Origin: a virus
Reading direction: 5' to 3' (one strand)
Virus record (IMG/VR): IMGVR_UViG_3300015195_000015
Location: 1-27,211 of that record
DNA: 27,211 nt
Shown here piece by piece: positions 1,664 through 24,463 of this stretch (its first letter is position 1; the number at the start of each line of letters is the position of its first letter). Under the pieces are notes generated by a model. It was not told where the DNA came from, did not search any database, and saw nothing but the letters and a program-made list of their open reading frames with translations. The translations under genes were made by a program, and so were the position numbers.

Positions 1664-2202
1664 CAATCCACCTCTTCGTCCTTGATCCGGTCGCCGCCGA
1701 TCGAGAATCCTGTGTACTCGCCGTTCTCGAATTTCGCCAGCACGTCGGCAGGCGGCTTGAAGCCCATCATGAGACCAGTCTTGCGCGTCGTCATGCCGAA
1801 CGCCTTGGCAATGTCCGTCGTCATCGGAAAGAGAAACAGCCACTGCGCATTCTCGTCGCCGGTGTGCATTTCCTTGTGATGGCGATCGCTGGCGGCAAAG
1901 TCGGCCGCCGCCTTCAGCATCGCGTCTTCGGGAATGTGATCGTCCTGGACGTCGTAATAGTCGACGCCGTCCTCTTTGCAGATGATGCCGTAGCCGAAGA
2001 CCATGCCGAGCTTTTTGTCGATCGACTCGGCCTTGGCGTACTTGCAGCAGGAATCGCCCTTCGGAGCCGCGCCGATCCGAGCGGCCATGCCACGCCTGCG
2101 CTTCTTGCCGGTGCCGCCAGCCGAGCTGATGTGCACGTCGCCAACGCTAGGCTGGTCTTTCGCCAAAGCGCTCAAAGCCGATTTGAAGCCGATTGCCGCC
2201 AT
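1663..2202 (-). CDS. XkdF-like prohead protease
   Basis: About 179 residues from ATG 2202. The frame opens at TTG 2238 and the start is uncertain because no strong Shine-Dalgarno is seen. The C-terminal two thirds match the XkdF-type putative phage serine protease pattern: a GYGIICKEDGVDYYDVQDD entry, HIPEDAMLKAAADFA, DRHHKEMH, then LFPMTTDIAKAFG, and the closing GEYTGFSIGGDRI. In this family the conserved His and the FSIGG end lie near the active site. The role is cleavage of scaffold and capsid precursors during head maturation. It lies directly upstream of the scaffold gene, as expected. Upstream of it the strand organisation flips, because a plus-strand cassette separates it from the rest of the head operon. 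Confidence 0.65.
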   Translation of the reverse strand: MAAIGFKSALSALAKDQPSVGDVHISSAGGTGKKRRRGMAARIGAAPKGDSCCKYAKAESIDKKLGMVFGYGIICKEDGVDYYDVQDDHIPEDAMLKAAADFAASDRHHKEMHTGDENAQWLFLFPMTTDIAKAFGMTTRKTGLMMGFKPPADVLAKFENGEYTGFSIGGDRIKDEEVD

Positions 2203-2286
2203 GCGCGCAGGATTAAGGCTGTTTTCGTTCCTACGCAAGGATTGATGCGGCAGGCCGTCGCACCACTAGGGCTAGATGCGGACACC

Positions 2287-2314
2287 TTGACCTGCGGACG
2301 TGGCGTCCTATATA
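2287..2314 (+). promoter_or_regulatory. Promoter P1 with embedded inverted repeat
   Basis: A -35 box TTGACC (2287-2292), a 16-nt spacer and a -10 box TATATA (2309-2314) precede the first cassette gene. Between the boxes lies a 5-5-5 inverted repeat, CGGAC-GTGGC-GTCCT (2295-2309), whose last base is the first base of the -10. The flank GCGGACACCTTGACC is repeated at the second promoter (3818-3832). The repeat placement suggests an operator for a dimeric regulator; that part is inference. Confidence 0.7.
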
Positions 2315-2350
2315 AGAGATGTACTAGCGGAAAACAAAGAGGAAGACGCA

Positions 2351-2617
2351 ATGGCCAAGAAATCGAGTTACTACGAAGGCGGGTACAAAGTGATGCTTCA
2401 CGGCGCGCCCTGCAAAGTGTTCGTGAAGCCTACCCCGCACATGCTGGCGGTGATGCGCGGCGAACAGTATGAGCCGTCCAATAGGCCGCTCTGCCGCGAG
2501 CTCGCCTCGAGCAGGTTTCCCCAGGTCAAATACTCGGCGCCGCCTTGGGTCGAGGAACTGATCGCCGGGTCGCAGAAAGCCTTGGGCCCGAAACCCGAGC
2601 TGGCGATGGCCGCCTGA
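2351..2617 (+). CDS. Small hypothetical protein, first gene of plus-strand cassette
   Basis: An 88-residue protein starting at ATG 2351 behind a strong AGAGGAAG Shine-Dalgarno. It is basic, Pro- and Ala-rich near the C-terminus, with no transmembrane segment or recognisable catalytic motif. Its stop codon overlaps the next ATG (TGATG), so translation is coupled to the zinc-ribbon gene downstream. It is the first gene after promoter P1. I do not recognise a family. Confidence 0.75.
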   Translation: MAKKSSYYEGGYKVMLHGAPCKVFVKPTPHMLAVMRGEQYEPSNRPLCRELASSRFPQVKYSAPPWVEELIAGSQKALGPKPELAMAA

Positions 2618-3558: not shown

Positions 3559-3812
3559 ACTGGATCAAGACGACTGAAGAGCGCTTCGACGAAATGCTGG
3601 GCGTCCTGCCGCCGGCCATGTGGCTGGCCCACGGCTTCCTGGTCGGCGAGCCTTGGGACCACGATCGCCAGGGACGGCCGCGGTTTGCCGCGTTCGTCCA
3701 GGTCGACGGCGTCTATTACGAGAGCGCCGGGCCCATGACCGGGCCGGAATTTAGGGCGTTTCAGGCCTCGGATGTAGAGCGCAATGTTATTGCTGGCCAG
3801 GCCTCAGAATAA
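3555..3812 (+). CDS. Small hypothetical protein
   Basis: An 85-residue protein whose ATG overlaps the upstream stop (ATGA). It contains many aromatic residues (PPAMWLAHGFLVGEPWDHD) and a C-terminal GPEFRAFQASDVERN segment. No membrane segment or known motif is seen. It is the last gene before promoter P2. Confidence 0.65.
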   Translation: MNWIKTTEERFDEMLGVLPPAMWLAHGFLVGEPWDHDRQGRPRFAAFVQVDGVYYESAGPMTGPEFRAFQASDVERNVIAGQASE

Positions 3813-3826
3813 CAATAGCGGACACC

Positions 3827-3854
3827 TTGACCGCAGGCCAAGAAGGCCTATATT
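3827..3854 (+). promoter_or_regulatory. Promoter P2 with embedded inverted repeat
   Basis: A -35 box TTGACC (3827-3832), a 16-nt spacer and a -10 box TATATT (3849-3854). The spacer holds AGGCC-AAGAA-GGCCT (3835-3849), a perfect inverted repeat in the same place as in P1 but of different sequence. The upstream flank GCGGACACCTTGACC is identical to P1. Confidence 0.7.
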
Positions 3855-3881
3855 CAGTATGTCGGTTGAGGCCGACATCCC

Positions 3882-3977
3882 ATGAAAACCCTTTGGAAAG
3901 TGTTCGTCGCCTGGCTCGTCGAGCTCGGCACCATCGACTTTTCTCTCTTGGAAGGAGGCCAGTATGAGCCATCGTGA
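3882..3977 (+). CDS. 31-residue peptide
   Basis: A short frame from ATG 3882 behind GAGG at about 10 nt. It begins MKTLWKVFVAWLVELG, which is amphipathic and could touch a membrane. It overlaps the next gene by 14 nt and contains that gene's AAGGAGG ribosome site within its own coding sequence, so its translation may expose or load that site. Existence as a real gene is moderately supported by position after promoter P2. Confidence 0.4.
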   Translation: MKTLWKVFVAWLVELGTIDFSLLEGGQYEPS

Positions 3978-4173
3978 AATCGCCGTTCTCAGCCAAGCCA
4001 AGGCGCTCGGAATGGGAAACACTCTGTTCAAATACCTGCCCGCCGGCGCCGAGTTTAGCTTCGAGCAGGGCGGCAAGATCTTGATCAAACATCGCAACGG
4101 CTACCACGTCGAGGGCGTCGGTTACTACCGCGTCGGGCAGAGGGTCGCTGTTTGGAAAGGGGAGAAGTCGTGA
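3964..4173 (+). CDS. Small hypothetical protein
   Basis: A 69-residue protein with a near-ideal AAGGAGG Shine-Dalgarno (3953-3959). It has a beta-rich middle (GAEFSFEQGGKILIKHRNGY) and ends basic. The stop overlaps the GTG start of the following gene (GTGA). No family recognised. Confidence 0.7.
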   Translation: MSHREIAVLSQAKALGMGNTLFKYLPAGAEFSFEQGGKILIKHRNGYHVEGVGYYRVGQRVAVWKGEKS

Positions 4174-4460
4174 GCCAATCAATGCGTAAAATCATGGAAG
4201 ACCTGAACGAGCAGATCGTGGGCGAAGCCTTCGGGCAGCCGATCAGCCGGGGCCAGTTCCAGGAGGCCTTCAAGAAGGTCCACAATTCCAAAAACTGGAA
4301 ACTCCCGATCAACGCGATCGTCCCGCTCAACGTGATCGAAGTCGAGATCATGAAGCAGGCAATTCCCTTCTTCGTCGGGTCCGAGCCGAAAGTCTCGTAC
4401 GTCGGCGGCGGCAAATACCGGATCGAGGCGGCCGGCTACTACGTCTCAATAGGAGCATGA
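4170..4460 (+). CDS. Hypothetical protein
   Basis: A 96-residue protein starting at GTG 4170, coupled to the upstream stop; ATG 4182 is an alternative start. Helical N-terminal half, beta-rich C-terminal half ending in GGKYRIEAAGYYVSI. That ending echoes the YHVEGVGYYRVG end of the preceding protein, so the two may share a small domain. Coupled by ATGA to the DUF3560 gene. Confidence 0.65.
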   Translation: MSQSMRKIMEDLNEQIVGEAFGQPISRGQFQEAFKKVHNSKNWKLPINAIVPLNVIEVEIMKQAIPFFVGSEPKVSYVGGGKYRIEAAGYYVSIGA

Positions 4461-7096: not shown

Positions 7097-7184
7097 GGCG
7101 GCGCTCTATCCAGTTGAGCTACGAGGTAGGCATTCCGTGTACTTTGGAAAATCCTCGACCGGGATCGAACCAGCAACCTCCGCC
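7097..7184 (-). tRNA. Circularly permuted tRNA-like sequence (tRNA-Arg type)
   Basis: Read on the minus strand, the order is: anticodon-stem 3' strand GGCGG (7180-7184), variable loop AGGTT (7175-7179), T arm GCTGG-TTCGATC-CCGGT (7158-7174), acceptor 3' strand CGAGG (7153-7157), a 26-nt spacer, acceptor 5' strand CCTCG (7122-7126), TA at positions 8-9, D arm GCTC-AACTGGATA-GAGC (7103-7119), base 26, and anticodon-stem 5' strand CCGCC (7097-7101). Every stem of a tRNA is present, but the 3' half precedes the 5' half and the anticodon loop is open at the outer ends. Half sequences resemble bacterial tRNA-Arg with a CCGCC/GGCGG anticodon stem. Acceptor pairs 1 and 2 do not match, and T-stem pairing includes two G-U pairs. 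Inside the spacer, TTCC and GGAA can extend the acceptor hairpin. It starts within about 10 nt of the MuF stop codon. Whether it is a working RNA, a decoy or a remnant is open. Confidence 0.6.
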
Positions 7185-7192
7185 TGGCAGCA

Positions 7193-9061
7193 TTAGAACG
7201 CAGAAATGATCGTCACGCAACGGCAATTATGAGCTATAATTCCGTTGGCGACATACCAGCCGCCTTCCGTCTCGAGGTTATAGACATGCCCGCTGAATGG
7301 TTTCCGCCTGACGCTGATGACCTTGTTCGCCGCTATTTGTCCGGCACGTCCATCAATCAACTGGCGCGCCAGCTTGGCGTCAGCCGCATTCCTGTCACCC
7401 GTGTGCTCAAGAAGTTGTGCGGCGAAACGCGGGGTCGAAGCGCCGCTGAGACGCTGAAGTGGTCGCGCATGACCGCCGCCAAACGCAAGCGACAAGTGCG
7501 GGCAGCCCATGACGCGACGCGCGGCGCGCCCAAGTCTTTCGAGGCCAAGGTCAATCTCGCGCTGAGTTGCGAAAAGAGTGGAACGCGCAACGTCGGGCAC
7601 GGAGAGCGCGAACTGGCGAAGTTGCTCACTCAGCGAGGCGTTCCGTTCATTCCACAACAAGCGGTTGGACCCTACAACTGCGACCTCGGAACCTTCCCCG
7701 TCGCCGTGGAAATCTTCGGCGGCAACTGGCACTGGAGCGGACGACATTTCGCGCGAACGCCCGAGCGCATTCGTTACTTCATGGATCGTGGCTGGCACGT
7801 CTTCATCGTGCGCGTCACCAAAGCCAAACCCGTCACCGAACGCACCGCCGATGAGGTCGTCGCCTTCATTGAGCGCGCCTGCGCCGACCCACCCACGCCG
7901 CGTCAATATCGGGTGATTGACTGTGCAGGAAAATTCATTGCCGGCGGCAGTTCGAACGACCGCGACATCTCCATCGAATGCACGACGGCTATAGCCCGTG
8001 ATCGGACTTCTGGGCGTTACGAGAGTGTCCCCAAGAAAGCATTGAGGATGTAGCGGCGGGTACATCGCTGGCCCGAGTGGCGTTTCAAAGTAGCCGCCCA
8101 GCGGCACCCCATCCGGATTCATGTCAGGCACTTCGGCGCAGTAGATGCAAAGCCGGTCATCGGGAACCACCAGCCATTGGCGCCTCAACGTGTTGCGATC
8201 AAGCAGACCCTTGTCCGCCGCCTGACTCCATGCCGCATTCTGCGCTGCGTTCGCTGCCCTGATCGTCTCGGTGCGCGCGATGGTTTCGGCTCGCATCGTC
8301 AGCATGCGCTCGCCATAGCGTTCGACCTGGCGGTCAATTTCCTCTTGCGTCAGTTCGCGCTCAGCGTCGGCGCCCAGCGTGCGGTCAAGGGTCGGGTCGA
8401 AGCGCCGGTCGCGCAGCGCTCTGGTCATGGCCTCGCGGTCGCCGGTCTCGAGCAAGTTCCTGAAGTTCGACACAGCGGCCGCCTGGCGGTCCGTCAGGCC
8501 TATCAGGGAGCGGATCTGGCGCGCCTGCTCATAAGGATGCCCGCCGTAAGCCATGGCGTCAGCGACAATCCTACGGATGCCTAGACGGGTGTCGTTTGAG
8601 ATTTCGCGGATTAGGCCGAGGTCGTAACTTCGCAGGAACTCCGTCGCCTTCGGGTTAGCGATATCGAACCGCATGGAAAGCCGCCCAGCGGTCGGGATTG
8701 ACCGGGCCACGGTCTGCCGGCCAGCTTCGATGAACGCCGCCTCCAGCGGTGCGCCCAGGGCCACACTGAGGCTCGGCGCCATCGTCTGGTCGATGCCAAG
8801 CACCCGGATTACCTGGTTGACGTCGCCCGTGGCTATCGCGTCCGCCAGCGCCTTGTCGTCAACGCCCGCCTTGGCCTTGTCGATCGCGTCCAGAAACGCC
8901 TGGCGCACCTTCGGGTCGGCCTTGTCGGCGATGTCGAGCAGCCATTGATAGTCCGGCTCTGGGTCCATGGCCTTGGCCAGCGGCGAGCGCCAGCGCGTTG
9001 CCTGACGATAGCCGGACTGCTTGGCGATGCTGTGGCTGTGCGGAATGCAGAACCGGTTCAT
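7193..9061 (-). CDS. SPP1 gp7/MuF-type head protein interrupted by an intein
   Basis: A 622-residue precursor from ATG 9061, which overlaps the upstream stop (ATGA). Removing the intein leaves a 350-residue MuF protein. The MuF head-morphogenesis region contains AETIARTETIRAANAAQN, then RQWLVVPDDRLCIYC, and the conserved end YPPLHPQ-CRC. MuF proteins join the head near the portal and are ejected or help genome delivery in some phages. The intein lies exactly between HPQ and CRC, the most conserved spot of the domain. After splicing, only CRCVTIISAF follows. The mature protein would need splicing to restore HPQCRC. Neighbours (portal upstream, zeta-like protein downstream) fit the head module. 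Confidence 0.9.
   Translation of the reverse strand: MNRFCIPHSHSIAKQSGYRQATRWRSPLAKAMDPEPDYQWLLDIADKADPKVRQAFLDAIDKAKAGVDDKALADAIATGDVNQVIRVLGIDQTMAPSLSVALGAPLEAAFIEAGRQTVARSIPTAGRLSMRFDIANPKATEFLRSYDLGLIREISNDTRLGIRRIVADAMAYGGHPYEQARQIRSLIGLTDRQAAAVSNFRNLLETGDREAMTRALRDRRFDPTLDRTLGADAERELTQEEIDRQVERYGERMLTMRAETIARTETIRAANAAQNAAWSQAADKGLLDRNTLRRQWLVVPDDRLCIYCAEVPDMNPDGVPLGGYFETPLGPAMYPPLHPQCFLGDTLVTPRSPITGYSRRAFDGDVAVVRTAAGNEFSCTVNHPILTRRGWVGAGALNEGDDLIGGAFGDGFGFGDAHDEDVPATIHEVTNALGRSREMSSAPVPVAAEDFHGDGEGSEVAVVGSNRLLWNERNASLSEQLRQFALSVPDVARSTLFATQREIDLGLERLGRAARRVMGCPHLSLAFGGGHARPLQRLSGASTPRFAAQLLEHTGDRNAADAKLARQLIDGRAGQIAANKVISVRRKPFSGHVYNLETEGGWYVANGIIAHNCRCVTIISAF
7226..8041 (-). mobile_element. 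Intein in MuF (272 residues) lacking an in-frame endonuclease
   Basis: The intein begins with Cys1 (codon 8039-8041, CFLGDTLVTP) and ends with the dipeptide His-Asn (Asn codon 7226-7228), followed by Cys+1 (7223-7225). Block B is TVNHPIL with His43. Blocks F and G are GHVYNLETEGGWYVANGIIA then HN. A middle block has AEDFHGDGEGSEVAVV, typical of phage inteins of this subtype. No LAGLIDADG, HNH or GIY-YIG motif is present on this strand. The complementary strand of the same DNA carries a nuclease gene (7286-8053), so the element appears to be mobile through an antisense endonuclease. Splicing residues are all intact. Confidence 0.9.
7286..8053 (+). CDS. HTH plus Vsr-like (EDxHD-type) homing endonuclease, antisense to the intein
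   Basis: A 255-residue protein from ATG 7286, preceded by GAGG (7274-7277) at 8 nt. The frame is open from ATG 7229, which is the exact complement of the intein's C-terminal His codon. Residues about 9-45 form a helix-turn-helix (LVRRYLSGTSINQLARQLGV, then SRIPVTRVLKKL). A basic linker follows, then a Vsr/EDxHD-like core: GHGERELAKLLTQRG, YNCDLG (Asp133), VAVEIFGGNWHWSGRH (Glu142, His149), and a helix plus WHVFIVRV. The gene ends 12 nt past the intein's first codon, inside extein DNA. Its codons align exactly with intein codons on the other strand. Family placement rests on these motifs; it would cut intein-free MuF genes (inference). Its existence depends on both strands coding, which is rare but strongly suggested here. 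Confidence 0.8.
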   Translation: MPAEWFPPDADDLVRRYLSGTSINQLARQLGVSRIPVTRVLKKLCGETRGRSAAETLKWSRMTAAKRKRQVRAAHDATRGAPKSFEAKVNLALSCEKSGTRNVGHGERELAKLLTQRGVPFIPQQAVGPYNCDLGTFPVAVEIFGGNWHWSGRHFARTPERIRYFMDRGWHVFIVRVTKAKPVTERTADEVVAFIERACADPPTPRQYRVIDCAGKFIAGGSSNDRDISIECTTAIARDRTSGRYESVPKKALRM

Positions 9062-9339
9062 CAGTTTGCTTTGTCCCCGGACTGGCGCATGTGCCCGACG
9101 ATCCACTCAGCGATTCCAGCCTCTGATGTTTCGCGGACGATCGACCACGGCATTTCGATCTTGATGATTTGGTCGTCCATCACGATACCAAAGGTCACAG
9201 ACCCGCGCGTTAGCGAGGCAGCAATCTTGCCAGCCGGATCATTGGCGACCTTCTCGCCGCGCGATGCTGCTTTGAGCATCGTGGCGATGTTGTCGGCCTG
9301 AGCTTTGATCTTGTGGAGTGGAGACGCAGAAGTGGTCAC
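9061..9339 (-). CDS. Small head-region protein
   Basis: A 92-residue protein starting at GTG 9339, coupled by GTGA to the upstream gene and by ATGA to MuF. AAGG lies about 8-9 nt upstream. A helical N-terminus (SPLHKIKAQADNIATMLKAA) is followed by a beta-rich segment (GSVTFGIVMDDQIIKIEMPW). This small protein between portal and MuF is seen in related phages, but its function is not known to me. Confidence 0.7.
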   Translation of the reverse strand: MTTSASPLHKIKAQADNIATMLKAASRGEKVANDPAGKIAASLTRGSVTFGIVMDDQIIKIEMPWSIVRETSEAGIAEWIVGHMRQSGDKAN

Positions 9340-9863: not shown

Positions 9864-12556
9864 GTGAACTTGAAGCCGCGCGCGCGTCGTCCTCTGAACT
9901 TGGCCAGCTTTTGAGCTGGCGTCTGAGCCGCAGGGTCGTCGTCGCCCTGACCTTGGCCTTGCGCATCGGCCGGGTCGGTCGAGTCCGTCGTTGAATCGGT
10001 CGTGTCGCCTCCAGCTTGATCCTCGCCGCCATCGTTGAACGCGCCGGACGACACGCCTGTCTGCGCCGGCCAGCCTGCCTCTTCGCGCAGGTAAGCCTCG
10101 AGGACCGGGTCTGGCATGATCGCGCCTGTGCCGATCGCCGCAGTGATGTAAGCCGCAACCTTGTCGAGATCATCCTTGGCAATCTCGCCATGCGCCATCT
10201 TGCACTGGCCTTTGAGGCCGTTGACGGTGAGCAGGTCCGGCACACTCTTGCGATTGAACTCGGCGGTGATCAGATCGAGAAACCCGCCGACCGCGACGCT
10301 GAACATCTGCGATTTGTTCTTGCTCATGCTTGACGAGCCACGGCCGGACGCAGCGCTCGAGCCCGAACCGATCGTGATGAAATCGGCGAGCAGCGTGGCC
10401 GCTATGCGGTGATCGTAGCGGTCGATGATTTCGTTGGTCGCGAATTGGCGCCGCCCGCCCGTGGCGAGCAACTCCATTTTGTAGAGCTCGTGCCCGTCTT
10501 TGTCGTACGCCATCGGCAGGACGAAGCCTTCCTGCTCGTTGCGCACCGTGTCGCGCACCACAACCTTGAGCGCTGCCAGCTGGGCCTTGTCTTCGGGGCT
10601 CGCGTTTGCATTCATCAAACGCGCCGGCACCCACATGACGGGCAATCCAGTCAGGTCGCGCTCGACGCCGATCGCCTCGATCATCTGGATGCGCTTCTTG
10701 AAGAAATAACTCGTGTAAGCGTTGCGCATGATCGAAACGCCTTCGGGGTTGTTCTTGATCAGGCGCGTCTTGAAATGCAGGCATTTGCCGAGCGGCACGG
10801 TGAGTAGCGGCCCGCCAGTGGGAAGCAGCTGGACTAGCGCGATGGGATCTCCGGACTCGTCAAAGACCCAGTGCAGCAGCGTTTCCTGCGCGCGCCCGGC
10901 GAACTTGCGCCATCCGATCATGCCGTCGTCATAGCGCGAGTTTTTCTGCGGATCGTTCGAGCGGCCGCTGCGGGTCTTGTAGACTATTTCGTGCACACAG
11001 TTCGAAACGATGATCGGCCCGGCACAGAACGTGTGGTCCTCGTCGACCGTGAAATCGTAAACGTCGCCGTTATAGTCTTCGGCGGTAATGTCGGTCACTT
11101 CATGGCCGATGGTTTGCTGAAACACCTTGCATTGCAGTCCCTGCGTCTTGGGGCCATCGCTGTGAAGCCATTTAAAAACGCTGGTGTAGGACATGCCGAC
11201 TTCTGCCGCTATTGCGTGCATCGTCATTCCGCCAGCACGAAGCATGTGGACGCGTTCGTTGGCCTCGACGCTGCGCTTCCAACGCATTTCTCGCTGCGGC
11301 AACACGCCGACGGTGTAGCCACCAGGAATCGTGCCGAACGTGCCTTGAGTGCCCCCGACGCGGTACGAAAGCGGCGACGGTAGTCCAAGGGCGCCCGCAA
11401 TCATCTGCATCTGGTGACCGAGGTTTTTGCTAACTGTGAAGGCTGCGGCGATTTCGGTGTCGCTTACGGCGTTCACGCCACGATGGCCGTCGCCGTACAC
11501 CCATCCGTCAAGCACGCCCTGAGCGAATGCCTCGTCGGTCGGCAAACGTGAAAGGGCCTTGGTCCATGAATCGTCGCCGACGGCCCATTCATCGATCAAC
11601 GCCCGGAACTCTGGGTGACTGAACGATACGCGACCGCTGTTCGCGCCAGAATATCCGCCGCCGGTGAGACCGGGAAACCCGCGTTGCGCGCGCGCCGTGA
11701 CCGGCGAGGGACGGCCTCCGTCGCGCGACTGGTATGGTTTAAGATCGCGCGCTACCGCCCAAGCGTTGCAGCGCTGCTCAACTTCATCGACTTCCTTGCT
11801 GTGCAGCGAGAAAGTGACGCGGTTCCGGTCGCCATCGCGGCTGCCTTCGGCCAGATATAGGCCGACTATCCATCCACTGTCATAGTCGCCGCCGGCCTCC
11901 ATCTTCGGACGTGGGCGCAGAACAATATCGCCTGCGACAAGTTCGCCGGCCGTAACCCAGCCACGCACTGTCGGAAGTTTGTGTTCTGGCGTCATGCGAA
12001 TCGGGTGCGGATAGCCGCGCGTTCGAATGCGCATCATTTTGCCAGTGTGGCGGCGCGTGAATATCTTTGTCACCGGACGCCCGCGCCCGTGCTTGGTCAG
12101 CAGCATGTCGCCAGTAGCAACCGCGTCGGCGCGCTTCACCGTCCCGTCTGCCATAGTCACGATCTGATCGGGCGGCAGACACCAACCGTACTGCAGGAAC
12201 GTCAGAATCTCGCTGATCAGCTCCGGCCAGGTCTGCTCGAGGTCCGTCATGCAGGACTGGCAGAAGTCGGCCGCCTCGATGTCGTCAGGCTTGGTGCTGG
12301 CTGGTTCGAACTTGAAGTCCACACCGCGCAACAGGAACTCGATCGCAAAGAACATCGCGCCGATGATCGGGTCGTTGTCCCGCATCTCGCGGTACATGCG
12401 CTGGCCGCGCCAGCCGATGAGTTCGCGAAGCCATTCTTCCCGAACGTAGCCCGAGAACTGGCGCAGGCCGGTCGCGCCGAACTCGGTGAACGAAATGTTT
12501 TCCGCGTTGTCGGCCGATGCAGGCGGGGCTGCGGTCACGTTGCGCTTAGCTACCAT
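9860..12556 (-). CDS. Portal protein (DUF935-like) interrupted by an intein
   Basis: An 898-residue precursor from ATG 12556; the exteins join to 504 residues, a usual portal length. N-extein features are WRGQRMYREMRDNDPIIGAM, EFLLRGVDFKFEP and EILTFLQYGW. C-extein features are VHEIVYKTRSG, SRYDDGMIGWRKFAGRAQET, HFKTRLIKNNPEGVSIMRNA and VERDLTGLPVMWVP, as in portal proteins of the DUF935/Mu gp29-like kind. The portal ring sits at one head vertex, docks the terminase and lets DNA in and out. The intein interrupts the conserved YGW-C-xHEIVYK spot. The start overlaps the end of the terminase frame by 11 nt. Confidence 0.9.
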   Translation of the reverse strand: MVAKRNVTAAPPASADNAENISFTEFGATGLRQFSGYVREEWLRELIGWRGQRMYREMRDNDPIIGAMFFAIEFLLRGVDFKFEPASTKPDDIEAADFCQSCMTDLEQTWPELISEILTFLQYGWCLPPDQIVTMADGTVKRADAVATGDMLLTKHGRGRPVTKIFTRRHTGKMMRIRTRGYPHPIRMTPEHKLPTVRGWVTAGELVAGDIVLRPRPKMEAGGDYDSGWIVGLYLAEGSRDGDRNRVTFSLHSKEVDEVEQRCNAWAVARDLKPYQSRDGGRPSPVTARAQRGFPGLTGGGYSGANSGRVSFSHPEFRALIDEWAVGDDSWTKALSRLPTDEAFAQGVLDGWVYGDGHRGVNAVSDTEIAAAFTVSKNLGHQMQMIAGALGLPSPLSYRVGGTQGTFGTIPGGYTVGVLPQREMRWKRSVEANERVHMLRAGGMTMHAIAAEVGMSYTSVFKWLHSDGPKTQGLQCKVFQQTIGHEVTDITAEDYNGDVYDFTVDEDHTFCAGPIIVSNCVHEIVYKTRSGRSNDPQKNSRYDDGMIGWRKFAGRAQETLLHWVFDESGDPIALVQLLPTGGPLLTVPLGKCLHFKTRLIKNNPEGVSIMRNAYTSYFFKKRIQMIEAIGVERDLTGLPVMWVPARLMNANASPEDKAQLAALKVVVRDTVRNEQEGFVLPMAYDKDGHELYKMELLATGGRRQFATNEIIDRYDHRIAATLLADFITIGSGSSAASGRGSSSMSKNKSQMFSVAVGGFLDLITAEFNRKSVPDLLTVNGLKGQCKMAHGEIAKDDLDKVAAYITAAIGTGAIMPDPVLEAYLREEAGWPAQTGVSSGAFNDGGEDQAGGDTTDSTTDSTDPADAQGQGQGDDDPAAQTPAQKLAKFRGRRARGFKFT
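11000..12181 (-). mobile_element. Portal intein (394 residues) with LAGLIDADG motifs and inner HTH
   Basis: Cys1 is at 12179-12181 (CLPPDQIVTMADGTVKRADA) and the terminal Asn at 11000-11002, followed by Cys+1. Block B is TPEHKLP (His67). Two LAGLIDADG-type motifs are visible: GWIVGLYLAEGS (103-114) and GVLDGWVYGDG (222-232). Residues 313-340 (MLRAGGMTMHAIAAEVGM, then SYTSVFKWLH) form a helix-turn-helix inserted between endonuclease and C-splicing region. Block F is VYDFTVDEDHTFCAG, and the end is IIVSN. The usual penultimate His is Ser here, a variant known to be tolerated in some inteins. No long convincing antisense frame is seen, unlike in the MuF intein. Confidence 0.9.
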
Positions 12557-24389: not shown

Positions 24390-24463
24390 GATGCTGTGGC
24401 GGAATGGTTACGCAACAGATTGCAAATCTGGCAATGCCGGTTCGATTCCGGCCAGCATCTCCA
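24390..24463 (+). tRNA. tRNA-Cys (anticodon GCA) with encoded CCA
   Basis: Acceptor GATGCTG (24390-24396) pairs perfectly with CAGCATC (24453-24459). The D arm is GCG/CGC, the anticodon loop is TTGCAAA, and the T arm is GCCGG-TTCGATT-CCGGC. The discriminator is T (U73), an identity base for cysteinyl-tRNA synthetase, followed by an encoded CCA (24461-24463). One anticodon-stem pair (A-G) is mismatched. It is preceded by the same TAGGAGCG module as the protein genes. Confidence 0.9.

Follow-up and report, generated by a model that had tools for sequence, protein, structure and literature searches.

Antisense coding of a Vsr-like nuclease within a phage MuF intein suggests a mobile element that uses both DNA strands

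An intein in the MuF-like head morphogenesis gene of a viral genome and a nuclease gene on the complementary strand of the same DNA very probably together form an antisense intein/homing-endonuclease mobile element. Comparative sequence analysis establishes that the shared segment is dual coding, wherein one strand specifies the intein and the other, in codon-aligned register, specifies a protein with a helix-turn-helix (HTH) domain and a Vsr-like nuclease domain. The DNA examined (hereafter, the window) is the whole 27,211-nucleotide stretch of IMG/VR virus record IMGVR_UViG_3300015195_000015, and its relevant features are collected in Table 1.

Results

The MuF intein and the nuclease occupy the same DNA

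The MuF intein has the sequence hallmarks of a class 1 intein (Cys1, TxxH, a C-terminal HN, and Cys/Ser/Thr+1). Cys1 opens the motif CFLG, block B reads TVNH (T40, H43), block F reads GHVYNLE, and block G (IIAHN) ends in His271-Asn272 and is followed by Cys+1 (IIAHN|CRC). A Pfam search with the sense protein returned Intein_splicing (1.2e-7) and no match to an in-frame nuclease family in the intein. Motifs and Pfam thus agree with the first-pass annotation, which had described a 272-residue intein with complete splicing blocks but no endonuclease in its own frame. Cys1, Thr40, His43, and Asn272 are invariant among 37 intein members. In the AF2 model, which has the HINT fold and whose top Foldseek matches are the RadA, GyrA, and RecA inteins, pLDDT is ~90 for the splicing parts and mostly 33-50 for the linker, which is predicted to be disordered and shows low sense conservation except where the nuclease frame fixes the residue. 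The intein is expected to splice out of MuF, restoring the capsid protein.

ORF analysis bears out the earlier description of an antisense frame that is codon-aligned with the intein and free of stops from ATG 7229 to the TAG at 8053. Its product matches HTH_7 (8e-5) and MTES_1575 REase (1.2e-4) in Pfam. The AF2 model of the nuclease, predicted with IMG/VR loci as the only input, is confident (pLDDT 88), and VIA-align places its core closest to Vsr (1cw0; Z 11.9, rmsd 2.1 over 112) and I-Bth0305I (3r3p; Z 10.4, rmsd 2.2 over 92), the latter of which is also matched by sequence profile (E=3.3e-5). SurE, XPF, and mitoribosome chains also appeared in the Foldseek and VIA lists and were taken as distant or coincidental fold similarity. 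Among the core residues initially proposed, Asp133 and Glu142 stand, both being invariant in 37 members along with R161, but His149 is conserved in only part of the family (at least 90% in 20 IMG/VR members, missing from several phage members). E107 is conserved at 90% or more. No second copy of the nuclease was found within the 27-kb window.

Table 1. Coordinates of the antisense pair and of other features in the window
Feature	Position	Strand	Remarks
MuF-like head morphogenesis (minor capsid) gene, host (extein)	7193..9106	-	637 aa from GTG; Phage_Mu_F 2.4e-5
Intein in MuF	7226..8041	-	272 aa; insertion at LHPQ|CRC; splicing blocks and HINT fold
Antisense nuclease gene	7286..8053	+	255 aa and TAG stop; N-terminal HTH, C-terminal Vsr/EDxHD-like nuclease
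Candidate -10 promoter element TATAAT	7235..7240	+	complement of two block G Ile codons (ATT ATA)
Ribosome-binding site GAGG	7274..7277	+	8 nt before ATG 7286; complement of block F Asn-Leu codons (YNLE)
Conserved nuclease start ATG	7286..7288	+	complement of block F His codon CAT (GHVYNLE)
Nuclease HTH domain	7313..7420	+	residues ~10-45; Pfam; AF2 helices 10-45
Vsr-like nuclease domain	7589..7948	+	residues 102-221; VIA-align fold matches; invariant D133, E142, R161
Nuclease D133	7682-7684	+	
Doubly coding catalytic segment	7700..7714	both	nuclease VAVEI (+) is the complement of sense linker motif DFHGD (-)
Nuclease E142	7709-7711	+	
Nuclease stop TAG	8051..8053	+	complement of extein Leu codon CTA in the window
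YrlA-like (Y RNA-like, tRNA-mimic) match	7099-7182	-	just downstream of MuF; E=2.2e-4; 29.6 of 69 bits, under the Rfam gathering score
Portal gene intein	11000-12181	-	394 aa; Portal_Mu 1e-19; Intein_splicing 3.4e-10; LAGLIDADG-like motifs, by eye only
tRNA-Cys gene	24390-24463	+	

The antisense frame is open beyond the expectation from codon usage

Across 108 distinct members (deduplicated, with intein ends trimmed to leave the core), the intein core comprises 26,167 codons, of which 4,606 specify Leu or Ser, and just 2 of these are stop-forming; the remaining two antisense frames contain 645 and 1,351 stops. The sense core is open in all 108, and in none of them are the splicing blocks kept while stops run throughout the antisense frame. 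For the first 40 members, a set that includes a near-identical Klebsiella pair, the stop-forming codons TTA, CTA, and TCA make up 61 of the 2,065 intein codons for Leu/Ser versus 316 of the 2,152 extein ones (p=4e-44, a value that ignores kinship).

When the window intein was recoded with sense-synonymous codons according to phage codon usage, the antisense frame stayed open in 0.8% of the recodings. A nuclease HMM built without the window scored the real sequence at 325 bits versus 118 +/- 15 for the recodings, and the reverse recoding lowered the intein profile score from 305 to 141 +/- 14 bits. The frame is also open in members of 41-49% GC whose exteins have many stop-forming codons. For the member L010, such codons number 1 of 78 in the intein versus 44 of 113 in the extein, and its recodings carry 25.8 stops (minimum 13) versus 1 in the real sequence. 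The portal intein of the same genome served as a control and, at 61% GC, has 4 stops in its register-0 antisense frame.

Selection acts on the two frames in different zones

We tallied single-base codon differences in 27 disjoint pairs of members, a sampling that avoids relatedness only in part. In the linker, 922 differences are sense-nonsynonymous and antisense-synonymous versus 222 of the opposite kind, with the same direction in 27 of 27 pairs, whereas the extein control yields 368 antisense-synonymous versus 1,872 sense-synonymous differences. The corresponding values are 22 versus 192 for the C-splice zone and 202 versus 273 for the N-splice zone. This zone-wise pattern indicates that constraint comes from the nuclease in the linker, from the intein in the C-terminal blocks, and from both proteins in the N-terminal blocks. 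Judged from these substitutions, both frames are under purifying selection, as expected from the first-pass suggestion of dual coding.

Sense codons preserve antisense expression signals

Codon choice in the sense frame preserves sequences that on the other strand read as a -10 box, a ribosome-binding site, an ATG, and usually a stop, each of these being a putative signal for nuclease expression. In most members, the nuclease starts opposite the block F His codon or within a few codons of it; among the 108, the start is ATG in 89, GTG in 11, and TTG in 2, with none at the expected place in 6. A GAGG-like sequence precedes the start in relatives. The His codon opposite the start is CAT in 80 of 89 cases versus 57 of 200 at two control His positions, the Leu codon opposite the ribosome-binding site is CTC in 66 of 97 versus 848 of 2,547, and Leu2 is encoded by the stop-making CTA or TTA in 59 of 66 versus 32 of 2,547; p values for these biases count related members as independent, and the positions were chosen after the pattern had been seen. 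The stop was originally placed in extein DNA, which is true of the window but not of the family, for among the 102 members with a recognized start, 93 have the stop within the intein, and in 55 of them it lies opposite codon 2.

At one fixed offset in block G, at least 5 of 6 positions match TATAAT in 55 of 108 members, and 31 have the exact hexamer. At the three residues of this box, Ile is ATA in 41 of 51 cases versus 339 of 1,370, and Thr is ACA in 31 of 55 versus 122 of 1,511, with p values that are descriptive because the offset was picked after scanning the region. No sigma-70 two-box site emerged from a generic promoter scan, and no -35 element accompanies the candidate at 7235-7240. 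Of the two starts offered by the first-pass annotation, ATG 7286 is conserved, but ATG 7229 is not the family norm. The latter is disfavored because the -10 box lies downstream of it, and in several relatives, in-frame stops ahead of codon 21 separate this position from the conserved start and exclude use of the far start there.

The antisense pair recurs in diverse phages

Searched separately by tblastn, the nuclease matched 125 phage records and the intein 109-121, and these independent matches place the antisense pair in the same register, a recurrence the first-pass annotation had proposed to look for. The pair is present in ~125 phage records and 95 further viral or bacterial contigs, and its register is the same throughout. 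Hosts of the phages include Salmonella, Escherichia, Shigella, Klebsiella, Edwardsiella, Haemophilus, Aggregatibacter, Vibrio, Pseudomonas, Gordonia, Mycobacterium, and Rhodococcus, among others. In the first 20 regions read, the match lies antisense within an ORF that is annotated as head protein or MuF, bears some other name, or has none. Three of these 20, from phages ES2, Vibrio H2, and Sampson, give no nuclease BLAST match, yet have the same open antisense frame. In Rctr197k (L036), the host gene instead encodes a dCMP deaminase (Pfam 5e-11).

A profile scan that used a closer subset of the 37-member nuclease alignment recovered 15 bacterial contigs as well as 213 viral relatives, of which 80 were kept. 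An opposite-strand intein match is present at 95 of 95 loci fetched with the nuclease profile; the E-values of these intein matches are not independent, because the complement of the nuclease profile feeds the linker columns of the intein profile, and the splicing ends were therefore read directly. Titles of the bacterial and viral records name Proteobacteria, Chloroflexi, Cyanobacteria, Actinobacteria, Firmicutes, and others, a phylum spread to be read with caution about binning because most titled records are MAGs. 

Several loci have peculiarities of their own. In Rhodococcus REQ3 (L041), the intein is shortened to 225 aa and starts with Ala instead of Cys, and the nuclease match is partial. 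The MuF gene of a Scytonema contig (L134) has, beside the antisense-nuclease intein, a second mini-intein of 130 aa with 4 antisense stops. In vB_StyS-sam (L025), gp43 (2126-2527, minus strand) is annotated as hypothetical and lies inside the antisense nuclease region; no record seen labels it as a nuclease.

Empty alleles and several insertion sites

The 1,044-nt MuF genes of fPoEco01 and SETP3 lack the intein and represent precise empty alleles, that of fPoEco01 being identical in length to the joined exteins of Escherichia phage Snoke, with 87% DNA identity. The Snoke N-extein matched 691 phage records versus ~125 with the element, although these 691 are diverse and the comparison is only a rough measure of sporadic presence. 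In fEg-Eco06, the element occupies a different MuF site and the HPN|CRS site is empty, and another MuF gene (L044) holds two elements, the second of which (L044b) marks a further insertion site.

A single relative of the nuclease was found outside the antisense arrangement. In Acinetobacter phage vB_AbaM_IME285 (IME285), the free-standing protein AYP68850 (profile E=1.6e-49) is encoded by a gene that shares 7 nt with the end of a MuF gene lacking an intein, and the strand opposite to it has 12 stops in the register of the pair.

Discussion

We propose that these observations reflect one mobile element of ~0.7-1.4 kb in which each strand of a shared DNA segment encodes a protein of its own. On the strand of the host gene, the intein would splice out of MuF and the capsid protein would be restored. 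The other strand would yield a separate HTH and Vsr-like homing endonuclease whose expression signals are embedded in the intein, with the -10 box opposite block G, the ribosome-binding site and start opposite block F, and the stop at or close to the codons opposite Cys1-Leu2. Probable targets of the nuclease are MuF alleles that lack the intein, cleaved close to where the element inserts; the element would be copied when the break is repaired with the occupied allele as template. Sequence comparison shows selection on both frames, conserved expression signals, empty alleles, and several insertion sites; transcription of the nuclease gene, splicing of the intein, and cleavage and homing by the nuclease are inferred.

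Only TTA, CTA, and TCA make antisense stops, so codon-aligned frames can stay open in G+C-rich genes. One might therefore regard the antisense ORF as noncoding and kept open simply by sense conservation together with a G+C-rich choice of codons, the more so as several high-GC exteins are also poor in stop-forming codons. We give this reading virtually no credence. The frame is open even at 41-49% GC, the L010 intein departs sharply from both its extein and its recodings, the portal intein of the same genome has stops in the same register at 61% GC, the nuclease HMM score is far above that of recodings, and the linker substitution pattern is inverted in every pair. The recoding and substitution tests refute a chance frame from codon bias and, along with recurrence, uphold the first-pass claim that one segment encodes intein and nuclease on opposite strands. 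The converse view, that the nuclease alone functions while the intein frame is an artefact or a remnant, might draw on the predicted disorder of the linker and its scant sense conservation beyond nuclease-dictated residues. It is nevertheless highly improbable. The splicing residues are invariant in 37 members, the C-splice zone is under sense purifying selection (192 versus 22), and the sense core is open in every member, with the extein in frame after the intein; the invariant residues and the substitution test reject a degenerate intein.

An explanation in which both proteins are real but the nuclease has a role other than homing, such as excluding competing phages by cutting MuF while copying is incidental, is less easily set aside, though we consider it unlikely. 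In T4-like phages, homing nucleases can bring about marker exclusion, and the free-standing IME285 relative adjoins an intein-free MuF gene. However, homing is consistent with the sporadic occurrence of the element, with its several insertion sites, and with the precise empty alleles; exclusion and homing are not mutually exclusive. Homing by an antisense nuclease remains our preferred explanation, and we consider it likely that the elements form a class widespread across several bacterial phyla, in their phages and prophages alike. In such a class, intein and homing endonuclease would overlap fully in antisense, the promoter element, ribosome-binding site, start, and stop of the nuclease would lie in the complement of the splicing blocks, and the nuclease schedule would be separable from that of the late capsid gene.

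Inteins that bear LAGLIDADG or HNH endonucleases (e.g., PI-PfuI) resemble the MuF element in their HINT domain, conserved host protein, and associated mobility nuclease. Their nuclease, however, forms part of the intein polypeptide itself, in the same frame, whereas that of the MuF element is a separate, opposite-strand protein that partly overlaps the splicing blocks. The Vsr-like catalytic fold is common to the antisense nuclease, I-Bth0305I, and other EDxHD/Vsr-like homing endonucleases, but those are intron-encoded or free-standing rather than antisense to an intein. Dassa 2009, cited in PMC12350094, is said to describe free-standing Vsr-like nucleases near split inteins. The nearest analogue is found among group I introns, where homing genes likewise lie opposite the splicing element, as with I-DsqI (PMC9548176) and in Porphyra (PMC2585584). 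These cases differ in that the splicing element is an RNA intron in eukaryotic rDNA, the nuclease is of the His-Cys box type, and the gene sits in a peripheral insertion without overlap of a second protein-coding frame.

The open-access literature searched contains no description of an antisense nuclease in an intein, which is weak evidence of novelty as subscription papers were mostly outside the search; one paper found for Jerseyvirus notes an intein and homing endonucleases and makes no mention of the antisense arrangement. The MuF element represents an unusually well-supported long antisense overlap, given selection in both frames and conserved antisense expression signals. It would explain the continued mobility of inteins that have no in-frame nuclease, and would reveal a nuclease family hidden in genes annotated only as head proteins, even in well-studied Salmonella and Escherichia phages. 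If the proposal is correct, expression of the nuclease could follow a schedule separate from that of the late capsid gene.

Intein-free MuF genes can also have nuclease genes as neighbors. AYP68850 of IME285 combines an HTH with a nuclease core of the same family and adjoins MuF, but differs from the MuF element in that this MuF gene is intein-free and the opposite strand is closed by stops. In fPoEco01 (L141), a gene annotated as an HNH homing endonuclease (3615-4238, plus strand) lies directly downstream of the intein-free MuF gene.
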